From a virus, in the IMG/VR virus record IMGVR_UViG_3300029826_000012, positions 1 through 27,182 of that record: a stretch of 27,182 nt of DNA; one strand, 5' to 3'. Below the pieces are notes generated by a model that saw only the letters and a program-made list of their open reading frames with translations, did no database searches and was not told the DNA's origin. Both the position numbers and the translations under genes were made by a program. Of the stretch, positions 8,890 through 27,182 are shown piece after piece. Each line of letters opens with the position of its first letter. Position 1 is the stretch's first letter.

Positions 8890-9908
8890 TGACTATTCAA
8901 TCGCACGTTACCCCATTCGGTTGGATACAATTTGATGATACCGTTGAAGTCAGTCATGTTGTACCTGGGGGCTGGTTTCAGAATAACGCAACAGGAGGGC
9001 AAACAATATCGCCCTCGCTGTTCACTAACGATCAAACGTTTTACAGTTCCGGTCTAACGTTTGGCGCGATCGATGTATCGCCCTCTCTGTTCACCAATGA
9101 CCAAACATTTTACAGTTCAACGGTTTCAGCGGGCGGTCAGCTAATATCGCCCTCTCTGTTCACCAATGACCAAACATTTTACAGTTCTGGGCTAACGTTC
9201 GGCGCGATCGATGTATCGTCCTCTCTGTTCACCAATGACCAAACATTTTACAGTTCCGGTCTAACGTTTGGCGCGATCGATGTATCGTCCTCTCTGTTCA
9301 CTAACGATCAAACGTTTTATGACCCCGGTTTAACGTTTGGTTCGGTGGATATCAACTCAACGCTATTCACTAACGATCAAACATTTTACGATCCAGATCT
9401 AACGTTTGGCGCGATCGATGTATCGCCATCCTTGTTCACCAATACCCAAACATTTTACGATCCGATTGTACTTGCGGGCGGTCAGCTGATAACGCCCTCC
9501 TTGTTCACCAATACCCAAACGTTTTACGGCCCCGATCTAACGTTTGGCTCGGTGGATATTAATTCAACGCTATTCACCAACACCCAAACGTTTTACAGCT
9601 CGGTAGTTTCAGCGGGTAGCCAATTAATAACACCCTCCCTGTTCACCAACACCCAAACGTTTTATGACCCAGATCTAACGTTCGGTGCAATCGATGTATC
9701 GCCCTCGCTGTTCACTAACGATCAAACGTTTTACAGTTCAACGGTTTCGGCAGCAGGAATAACACTATCGCAAGCGGATATTAACGCCATTGCGGATGCG
9801 GTATGGGCTAGGATATTCGCCGCGCTCCCATTGGCTGCCAATATAACCCAAGTTAACGGCGTATCGGTAACAGGAACCGGGTCCCCTGGCGATCCTTGGG
9901 GACCATAA
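8889..9908 (+). CDS. Virion repeat protein with eleven 23-residue LFTNxQTFY repeats
   Basis: A ~40-residue N-terminal part contains two related GGW/FGW turns (HVTPFGWIQFDDTVEV, HVVPGGWFQNNATGG). It is followed by 11 tandem repeats with consensus SPSLFTN-D/T-QTFY-xx-LTFGAIDV, and then an ITLSQADINAIADAVWARIF helix and a short end, TGTGSPGDPWGP. Two repeat sub-types alternate irregularly: LTFGAIDV/GSVDI and VSAGGQLI. Repeats of the form LFTNxQTFY are known from phage virion proteins of proteobacterial phages, function not established. No cysteines or membrane segment. Its ATG overlaps the previous stop by one base. It may form a fibrous or surface-exposed beta structure. Confidence 0.85.
   Translation: MTIQSHVTPFGWIQFDDTVEVSHVVPGGWFQNNATGGQTISPSLFTNDQTFYSSGLTFGAIDVSPSLFTNDQTFYSSTVSAGGQLISPSLFTNDQTFYSSGLTFGAIDVSSSLFTNDQTFYSSGLTFGAIDVSSSLFTNDQTFYDPGLTFGSVDINSTLFTNDQTFYDPDLTFGAIDVSPSLFTNTQTFYDPIVLAGGQLITPSLFTNTQTFYGPDLTFGSVDINSTLFTNTQTFYSSVVSAGSQLITPSLFTNTQTFYDPDLTFGAIDVSPSLFTNDQTFYSSTVSAAGITLSQADINAIADAVWARIFAALPLAANITQVNGVSVTGTGSPGDPWGP
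9009..9767 (+). repeat. Eleven 69-bp tandem coding repeats
   Basis: Units of exactly 69 bp (23 codons) run from 9009; the eleventh (9699-9767) grades into unique sequence. Several units are nearly identical at DNA level: copies 3 and 4 share long stretches such as AACGTTTGGCGCGATCGATG, while others differ at synonymous sites. Copies 1-6 and 11 encode NDQ, and copies 7-10 encode NTQ. This pattern points to repeated unequal exchange or slippage with later divergence. Confidence 0.95.
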
Positions 9909-24793: not shown

Positions 24794-26812
24794 TTATTTT
24801 CTATACCGATATGCGTCAAATCCGGCAGCCGCCAAGGGTATGCCCTCCGCCCACGGTGGCGCGGTGCACATCAGTTCCGATAGCTCGGCACTAGAATAGC
24901 TATCGTTATCCAGTGTTTCACACACTATTTCATCATGTACCGTGAGGCATATTGCATATCCATTCCGATCCGCGTTAAGCATGCCAGACGCTAGAATATC
25001 TCGGCTACTCGCCTGGACTATGTTTTCGGTCAGTTTCCCCCCGTAGGTTTTTAAACGCTCGAACCGCCTAGATATTGCGTTTCTGCCTAGGTATGAAAGT
25101 TTATTATCCTTTACCTTAATTCCCGGATAGCATAAATACCGGCCCGAAGGTAATTTAATTCGGCCCCAGTTTTTTTGTTTATCCACCACTACCCGCTTAA
25201 CTTGTATGCGACGGTTCGGTTTTTCGCATACCGATATTAGAGCGTTTTCAATATCCTTCCAAAACTGAACCGTGTGCGGGTGAGACTTTCGCCACCCTTG
25301 CACAATTGCTTCGCATGCAATCCAAGTAGATTCCGATAGGCCGTATGTTTTCAGGCCTTTTTCTTCGAACCACGCCAGCATCTTTTCAGCATCCTTTATT
25401 TTGTCATCGCTAAGCGTTGGATATATGTTATCGGCCATGTCATTGAGGTCTATGCCATACGCAGCGGCGAATTGAACGAATGCCCCATGTCGCCCTTGAT
25501 ATCCGAATGCCAGTTCCTCGACTTTTCCTATTTGGCGCTGGCTTTTGCTAACGCTATTTGGTGATACCCCAAACGTTTTAGCGTACGCCATGTTATAGAT
25601 ATCCGCGCTTAGCCCTAAATCACTATCTCGGAACGCATCAAGTTTCCAGTCCTCGCCGGTTAACCACGCTAAAACGCGCCCCTCGATATTGGATAAATCC
25701 GATGCAACCAATTTTTTCCCCGGCGGAGCCGTGATGCACCCCCTAACAACGTCCCCGGCAACGGCAATTGGATCATCGAATATTAAATCTACACCGTTGT
25801 TTTTTATCGCCGCAATTCCTGATTCGATCAGACGGTTGGGCATAGACGGTCTAATTAAGTTTTGGGGTTGAAATCTTCGTCCAGACCACCGCCCCGTCCG
25901 TTCGGCCCCGTTGAATTGCAGCGTACCTCGCAATCGGCCATCGGAACTAACACAATTAAGGAGTGTTTTGTATTTGCTAACATTGGCCGAGCCTGACCGT
26001 AGCCTATTCTGTAATAACTCCCGTACTTCTGGTGGAATTTCAGACTCCAATAGTTTTTCTACTGTGCCTTTTTGTAGATTTTGAATATCAATTCCATGCT
26101 CGGATAGGATGTATTCCCGTGTTTTAACAACTTGTGTTGCAGAGCTAACCGCGCCATTTGTTAATTCGTCGGCTCTTTTAGATAGTCGTGCTTTGGCCGT
26201 TTTAACTAGATTAGCCGCCTTGTATGCCAGATCTACATCGATGCAAAATCCCCTATCGTTTATAGTCTGGTCAAGGTGCCATAACTCTCTTTCATCATTC
26301 CAACTTGGTAGCTTTTTATCGCATGCCCGCATAGCTAAAATGTCATATCGGGCATACTCAATGAATTTAGCCCAGTCATCTGGGTGGGATTCCGGCCCGT
26401 TTCGCATCCCCATTTTATTAGGCTTGCAAAATATCCGAATTAGTCTTTTCCCGTCTTCGTTTTTAGGGGTATCCACCCTTAGGATCTTACTCAGTAAATT
26501 CAACTCACCGGGTAATGAATGCGCTAACGCTTTCACCATAGTGCAGCGCCATTTTGATAAAGGGGATTTAAACCCGGTATGCTCCAGAATCGTTCTATCG
26601 AATTGTGCATTATGCGCGACAATTTCATCCGCGCTTTTTAAAAGATTCGGAGCCCTGCTCAAGATATCCGGCCCCGTCAAAACTTCAACAGGGCCGTCAT
26701 TTATCGCAAATGAAAACATTAAAATTTCAGCGTCTTCCGCGTATCTATGCAAACCTACGGTTTTAAGATCTAGCTCACAGAATGTTTCGAGGTCTAAATA
26801 TAATGTTTTCAT
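24794..26812 (-). CDS. DNA polymerase, family A with 3'-5' exonuclease domain (672 aa)
   Basis: Replicative polymerase. The N-terminal DnaQ-like proofreading domain has Asp7/Glu9 (YLDLET), Asp72 (AHNAQFD) and Asp157 (YARYD). The polymerase domain shows ERTGRWSG, motif A SDLSNIEGR (Asp372, Glu377), motif B RQIGKVEELAFGYQG (Arg426, Lys430, Tyr438) and motif C VHDEIV (Asp627). There is no 5'-3' exonuclease domain, as usual for phage enzymes of this size. The ATG at 26812 is chosen because GGAGAGA lies just before it. A TTG at 26869 would add 19 residues that correspond to a degenerate copy of the upstream 36-bp repeat. The gene is first in line with the nuclease and helicase. Confidence 0.93.
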   Translation of the reverse strand: MKTLYLDLETFCELDLKTVGLHRYAEDAEILMFSFAINDGPVEVLTGPDILSRAPNLLKSADEIVAHNAQFDRTILEHTGFKSPLSKWRCTMVKALAHSLPGELNLLSKILRVDTPKNEDGKRLIRIFCKPNKMGMRNGPESHPDDWAKFIEYARYDILAMRACDKKLPSWNDERELWHLDQTINDRGFCIDVDLAYKAANLVKTAKARLSKRADELTNGAVSSATQVVKTREYILSEHGIDIQNLQKGTVEKLLESEIPPEVRELLQNRLRSGSANVSKYKTLLNCVSSDGRLRGTLQFNGAERTGRWSGRRFQPQNLIRPSMPNRLIESGIAAIKNNGVDLIFDDPIAVAGDVVRGCITAPPGKKLVASDLSNIEGRVLAWLTGEDWKLDAFRDSDLGLSADIYNMAYAKTFGVSPNSVSKSQRQIGKVEELAFGYQGRHGAFVQFAAAYGIDLNDMADNIYPTLSDDKIKDAEKMLAWFEEKGLKTYGLSESTWIACEAIVQGWRKSHPHTVQFWKDIENALISVCEKPNRRIQVKRVVVDKQKNWGRIKLPSGRYLCYPGIKVKDNKLSYLGRNAISRRFERLKTYGGKLTENIVQASSRDILASGMLNADRNGYAICLTVHDEIVCETLDNDSYSSAELSELMCTAPPWAEGIPLAAAGFDAYRYRK

Positions 26813-26832
26813 TCTCTCCGCTTCCTTGTAAT

Positions 26833-27050
26833 TGGGTTTAGTCGCAGGGTATGGCCCGCTTATATTCAATTGGGTTTCTCAATAGCATTGGCACGTTTTT
26901 TGTCCTTGGGTTTCTTAATTCCCTTTACACGCTCCTGATATCTGGGTTTCTTGAAGTAATTGGCTCGCTTATCTATTATGGGTTTCTTGAAGTAGGTGAC
27001 ACGCTTATCGAACATGGGTATGTAATTTAATCTGGCGTGTAATACTTATT
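26833..27050 (-). repeat. 36-bp direct-repeat array upstream of the DNA polymerase
   Basis: On the plus strand TGGGTTT begins at 26833, 26871, 26907, 26943 and 26979, and TGGGTAT at 27015. The steps are 38, 36, 36, 36 and 36. A second conserved block about 20 bases into each unit reads TGGCCCGCTTAT, TGGCACGTTTTT, TTACACGCTCCT, TGGCTCGCTTAT, TGACACGCTTAT and TGGCGTGTAATA. Four inner units lie within a 49-codon minus-strand frame. The first unit lies between that frame and the polymerase start, and the last upstream of its ATG. The units are diverged, so the array is old or under selection. It could be coding, an iteron-type origin, or a regulator-binding array. Confidence 0.8.
26866..27015 (-). 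CDS. Small basic repeat protein (49 aa), four 12-residue repeats
   Basis: ATG at 27015 (minus strand), TGA at 26866-26868. The product is strongly basic and consists of four 12-residue units, with the shared pattern (D/Q/K)(K/E)R(V/A)xxxxKKP: DKRVTYFKKP, DKRANYFKKP, QERVKGIKKP, KKRANAIEKP. Differences between units keep the frame and include synonymous changes (CGT/CGA), which favours translation. There is no good ribosome site before the ATG, and the frame is also the frame of the preceding zinc-ribbon gene, whose TAA lies 30 bases upstream. Readthrough or re-initiation is possible. I do not recognise the family; a nucleic-acid-binding role would fit the charge, as inference only. Confidence 0.5.
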   Translation of the reverse strand: MFDKRVTYFKKPIIDKRANYFKKPRYQERVKGIKKPKDKKRANAIEKPN

Positions 27051-27182
27051 TAACAAGGTTCTCTTTCGGGAAGTATTTGCCGCAATCTTTACACTTCCAC
27101 CAGGACCGATAAACACGAGATAGGGAAACATAGTTTATCTCATCTCCATAAATGTTCCTGACAAAATCTGCGTCTTTGTGCT
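27046..27182 (-). CDS. Zinc-ribbon-type protein, 3' end only
   Basis: Only the C-terminal 44 residues are in the window; the start lies beyond base 27182. The visible sequence runs DADFVRNIYGDEINYVSLSR, then SWWKCKDCGKYFPKENLVK, with one CxxC pair. The partner ligands could be the His at the edge of the window or lie upstream. The IYGDEIN-then-WxCxxCG order is familiar from small phage zinc-ribbon proteins near replication genes, where the function is unknown. The stop TAA at 27046-27048 is followed in the same frame by the repeat ORF. Confidence 0.7.
   Translation of the reverse strand, partial: HKDADFVRNIYGDEINYVSLSRVYRSWWKCKDCGKYFPKENLVK

Follow-up and report, generated by a model that had tools for sequence, protein, structure and literature searches.

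A degenerate 36-bp repeat array in the leader of a phage DNA polymerase gene, probably a duplicated gene-boundary sequence

The virus record IMGVR_UViG_3300029826_000012 comprises 35,903 bases, and the window, meaning the whole stretch of DNA presented here, corresponds to its first 27,182. Ten N (27183-27192) follow the end of the window. They are apparently a scaffold gap and break the small gene upstream of the repeat array, so that the length of this gene is uncertain. Since the record is an assembly and the gap lies ~130 bp from the array, the number of repeat copies given below is provisional. One terminus of the record cuts through a primase/helicase-like frame, and at the opposite terminus the first frame of the window has an open end; because frames are open at both ends, the map is probably circular. 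The plus strand carries the late genes and the minus strand, from ~33.9 kb down to 23.1 kb, an early operon. The array lies in a gap of 233 nt (26813-27045) between the stop codon of the small gene and the ATG, at 26812, of a DNA polymerase gene. The nearest named relatives of the polymerase were those of BPP-1-type Bordetella phages, with 51% identity. Homologues of the small gene were phage proteins of 54 to 64 amino acids, most with an RNIYGDEI-like stretch, and with C..CGK. The features of the locus are as follows.

24794-26812, minus strand: family-A DNA polymerase gene, downstream of the array (phrog_17 at 4e-120, PF00476 at 1.6e-13)
26810-26839, minus strand: unit 6, partial, ACCCA at 26837, overlapping the polymerase start, both its ATG and its Shine-Dalgarno region (AAGGAAGCGGAGAG)
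26840-26877, minus strand: unit 5, ACCCA at 26875, 38 bases, holding indels and the TGA stop of the open frame
26878-26913, minus strand: unit 4, ACCCA at 26911
26914-26949, minus strand: unit 3, ACCCA at 26947
26950-26985, minus strand: unit 2, ACCCA at 26983, identical to unit 1 at 28/36 bases
26984-27021, minus strand: unit 1, ACCCA at 27019, ATACCCATGTTCGATAAGCGTGTCACCTACTTCAAG, more similar to the seventh copy than any other unit
27015-26866, minus strand: open frame of 49 codons with 12-residue basic repeats (MFDKRVTYFKKPIIDKRANYFKKPRYQERVKGIKKPKDKKRANAIEKPN), probably not translated, stopping at the start of unit 5
26997-27037, minus strand: gene-boundary sequence of 41 bp shared with the seventh copy (35/41 bases, 85%), reaching 22 bp upstream of the start codon of the open frame
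27046-27182, minus strand: 3' end of the small phage gene (C..CGK zinc-finger-like protein), with TAA at 27046-27048 as its natural end, homologues ending at the corresponding point

The array consists of six minus-strand units whose ACCCA blocks follow each other at steps of 36, 36, 36, 36, and 38 bases. This spacing had been proposed in a preliminary description of the window, and its coordinates were confirmed. At lag 36, 101 of 197 positions matched within the gap 26813-27045, giving a z of 7.3, whereas 2,000 sequences simulated with a first-order Markov model reached at most 4.05 across lags 5 to 100. Among 892 scoring windows of the 35.9-kb record, a higher periodicity score was observed only in the 69-bp repeats of a late gene. 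It had also been stated that the repeats run on beyond the stop codon of the open frame, and this held, with the frame stopping at the start of unit 5 and unit 6 lying in the polymerase leader. The array is degenerate, units 1 to 4 sharing 20 to 28 of 36 bases pairwise and units 5 and 6 fewer. Including the dispersed copy described below, ACCCA is present in all seven copies, an invariance that is partly by choice since the units were anchored on it; AAGCG is present in most, and every copy lies on the same strand. The fold of the array was no better than that of shuffled sequences, no inverted symmetry was detected within it, and it had no match in Rfam. A folded leader RNA or a known RNA family was therefore unsupported. 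Promoter-like and terminator-like sites in the array occurred at chance level only, and with no excess of sites an array of promoters or terminators was rejected.

The seventh copy was found beyond the window at record positions 28378-28418, on the same strand and ~1.38 kb upstream of the array. Its 36-bp core matched the 5' end of the array at 89% (E = 4e-6). The similarity starts right after the TAG of a 60-codon gene, in the 75-nt gap before the next gene; on the array side, it begins 8 nt past the TAA of the upstream gene. In the seventh copy, AGG replaces ATG, so that no frame starts there and the copy is non-coding. Because the similarity extends 22 bp upstream of the ATG and the copy carries AGG, the duplicated seed is best read as a gene-boundary sequence rather than a protein repeat. 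No further copies were found in the record, the motif thus being limited to two places. A 14-bp match in an IS110-like gene was at chance level and was not taken as a copy. An IS110-type Transposase_20 protein (PF02371, E = 1e-5) is encoded at record 28989-29894, by an ordinary gene within the early operon. A PAPS-reductase-family gene (PF01507, E = 5e-23; record 27360-28121) is situated between the array and the seventh copy, which therefore flank an accessory-gene cassette.

For comparison, 71 regions upstream of homologous polymerase genes were collected from loci found with the downstream helicase as the query, from annotated phages, and from earlier loci. Neither a comparable array nor the pattern ACCCA-N6-10-AAGCG was found in any of the 71 (best periodicity z = 4.3), although all relatives examined were distant, the closest being ~51% identical in the polymerase, which makes the non-conservation weak evidence. 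A profile of the units, applied to 2.8 million positions of other loci, had single, weak sites as its top matches. Scanning viral contigs for the pattern yielded two isolated hits, roughly the chance expectation or below it, and no array, while BLAST of the 403-bp region against phages and plasmids returned only E values of ~0.4. A relative sought through the PAPS-reductase gene was not found, and records with a 59 to 68% identical terminase contained no polymerase match, though most of these are fragments; none of these searches yielded a relative close enough for a selection test. Polymerase loci of this type thus do not generally carry the array, its use within this phage being a separate matter. 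The annotated relatives carried differing genes in the interval that separates the DUF2815 protein from the polymerase, as expected of a site for accessory genes.

The recurrence of the motif raised the possibility of a cis-acting array, in which a phage or host protein would bind ACCCA-N8-AAGCG in DNA or in leader RNA and thereby control the polymerase and the gene after the dispersed copy. Both motif-bearing gaps (233 and 75 nt) are among the larger ones of a tightly packed early operon and both lie directly before a gene, and the conservation of ACCCA (7/7 copies) and mostly of AAGCG, with all copies on one strand, is consistent with such a role. However, the motif occurs in only two places of the record, the outer units are degenerate, inverted symmetry, fold, and promoter excess are lacking, and the array is missing from the 71 relatives. 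Furthermore, the clustering of conserved columns in units 1 to 4 was not above chance (p = 0.36). A cis-acting array was therefore considered unlikely, though it is the strongest of the alternatives. If the array does work in this way, it would represent an uncharacterized control point for the replicative polymerase of the phage.

Two known classes of repeated phage sequences bear on this possibility. Like the start-associated sequences (SAS/ESAS) of cluster K mycobacteriophages, which have no known role, the units described here are short repeats located before several genes of one phage and are not shared by most phages (PMC3203893). The SAS, however, is a 13-bp motif present in 11 to 19 places, where it is associated with start codons, and it is conserved among relatives (PMC3203893), whereas the present sequence occupies two places, in one of which it forms a tandem array, with no conservation seen. 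In place of many conserved, start-tied copies, the motif was thus found twice in this record and was absent from the 71 distant relatives. The promoter early stem-loops (PeSLs) of T4-type phages, as cited in PMC4503421, are likewise repeated intergenic sequences of the early region associated with the shuffling of accessory genes. Unlike PeSLs, the copies here have neither a stem-loop nor an excess of promoters and are confined to two places; an early promoter and stem-loop in each copy were not observed.

It was also considered whether the 49-codon open frame is a small gene for a basic protein of 49 amino acids with 12-residue repeats, perhaps binding nucleic acid, with the repeats running on past its stop. 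In favor of this, the frame is open and free of indels up to the stop, and a change in length occurs only afterwards. Mismatches between units were in excess at third codon positions (p = 0.09 by column shuffling and p = 0.04 against a neutral simulation), and the replacements between units were slightly conservative (p = 0.06). Against it, the ATG is preceded by ACACGCCAGATTAAATTACATACCC and by no Shine-Dalgarno sequence, whereas most other early genes have one. Of 23 codon pairs that differ between neighboring units, 21 were non-synonymous. The synonymous-codon score of the frame was -0.150, compared with 0.049 +/- 0.062 in the real genes of the phage, that is, 3.2 standard deviations low and below every segment tested, while its overall coding score fell in the zone where real and spurious frames overlap. 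No homologues were found in PHROGs, Pfam, phage genomes, or viral contigs, and the start codon is replaced by AGG in the dispersed copy. Translation of the frame as a gene in its own right was therefore judged rather improbable. The preliminary description had regarded the array as a coding repeat and a DNA repeat at once. This dual role was poorly supported, given the lack of a Shine-Dalgarno sequence and of homologues, the odd synonymous codons, and a non-coding copy that remains similar upstream of the ATG. It is very improbable that the array is a new kind of phage regulatory element in which candidate ACCCA-N8-AAGCG sites in the leader, and one distant site, would be bound by protein to set polymerase expression, with the repeats also translated into a basic peptide.

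The 49-codon frame follows the TAA of the upstream gene in the same frame. The repeats as a read-through tail of that gene were nevertheless rejected, as its homologues (TunaTartare gp145 and others) end near the TAA. The opposite strand is also open, at 26851-27030 of the window (plus strand), where it would encode 12-residue hydrophobic repeats (GFLNSIGTFFV, GFLNSLYTLLI, GFLEVIGSLIY). The score of this antisense frame was lower than that of the sense frame, and its openness is probably incidental.

An iteron-type replication origin beside the polymerase gene was the least probable reading, with only a slight chance of being correct. Its attraction lies in direct tandem repeats near a replication gene and partly within an open frame, as in the lambda origin and iteron plasmids (PMC5043065), together with an A+T-rich 40-mer (82.5%) at 27307, ~290 bp from the array. 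The lambda origin, located inside the O gene, is a precedent for iterons within coding DNA (PMC5043065). However, in lambda the iterons are inverted repeats of 19 bp, bound by dimers of O (PMC5043065), whereas the units here are 36 bp long. The iterons of plasmids are as a rule spaced in helical phase (PMC5043065); in contrast, a step of 36 bp corresponds to 3.4 turns of 10.5 bp, not a whole number, and the units are degenerate, lie away from the skew extremes, and have no known initiator. No strict DnaA box was found in the whole record, and one relaxed DnaA match lies at 27289. The most A+T-rich 40-mer of the record falls within the divergent control region, at 34067. The cumulative GC-skew minimum, which had been suggested as a check for an origin at the array, lay instead at ~35.4 kb, with the maximum at about 22-23 kb, although skew largely follows gene strand here and is a weak test. 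In addition, one copy lies 1.38 kb away, and the array is absent from relatives with homologous replication genes. The origin proposed in the preliminary description thus found no support in the skew extremes, the DnaA boxes, the helical phase, or the 71 relatives.

Taken together, the array is probably a non-coding gene-boundary sequence of the early operon that has been tandemly duplicated and has partly decayed in the polymerase leader. Decayed duplication is favored because the periodicity is far above chance while the identity of the units decays, and because the dispersed copy lies between genes, does not code, and remains similar for 22 bp beyond the ATG. It is also favored because no fold, promoter, terminator, or Rfam signal was obtained and the coding signals were weak, and because none of the 71 polymerase loci has the array and the genes before the polymerase differ among relatives. 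Further, a second gene-boundary duplication is present in the same operon, where record 33452-33538 matches 33885-33971 at 77% over 87 bp (E = 4e-12); it spans the end of a small early gene and the Shine-Dalgarno sequence and start of the next. In order of probability, decayed duplication was followed by the cis-acting binding array, then by the small gene, and last by the origin.

Under decayed duplication, a short boundary sequence would have been duplicated in tandem about five times with a 36-bp period, after which the copies diverged. The dispersed copy, 1.38 kb upstream after the stop of another gene, would probably have arisen from recombination of the kind that shuffles small accessory genes in this region. 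The last unit may now provide part of the ribosome-binding region of the polymerase, and the open frame would most likely have arisen incidentally, the unit length being divisible by three. The array as a whole would appear to have no strong selected function. Two observations count against decay: the persistence of four exact 36-base steps, free of indels in spite of ~40% divergence, and the invariance of ACCCA hint at constraint, and the excess of third-position mismatches (p = 0.04 to 0.09) hints at past coding. The suggestion that the array might be the remains of a longer repeat gene was partly borne out, in that the remains of a longer repeat come close to decayed duplication, but the seed appeared to be a non-coding boundary sequence rather than a gene.

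The array is mainly an example of the duplication and decay that short gene-boundary sequences undergo in the early regions of phages, and of how their remnants come to resemble genes when the unit length is a multiple of three. In the 87-bp duplication, one copy encodes a C-terminal MYDGEMGGLSRY, and the other is a remnant before a different gene. Elsewhere in the window, at 9007-9734, a late gene contains a large in-frame array of ~10 copies of a 69-bp repeat, with SPSLFTNDQTFY-type repeats, and its product is probably a structural or fiber-like protein.
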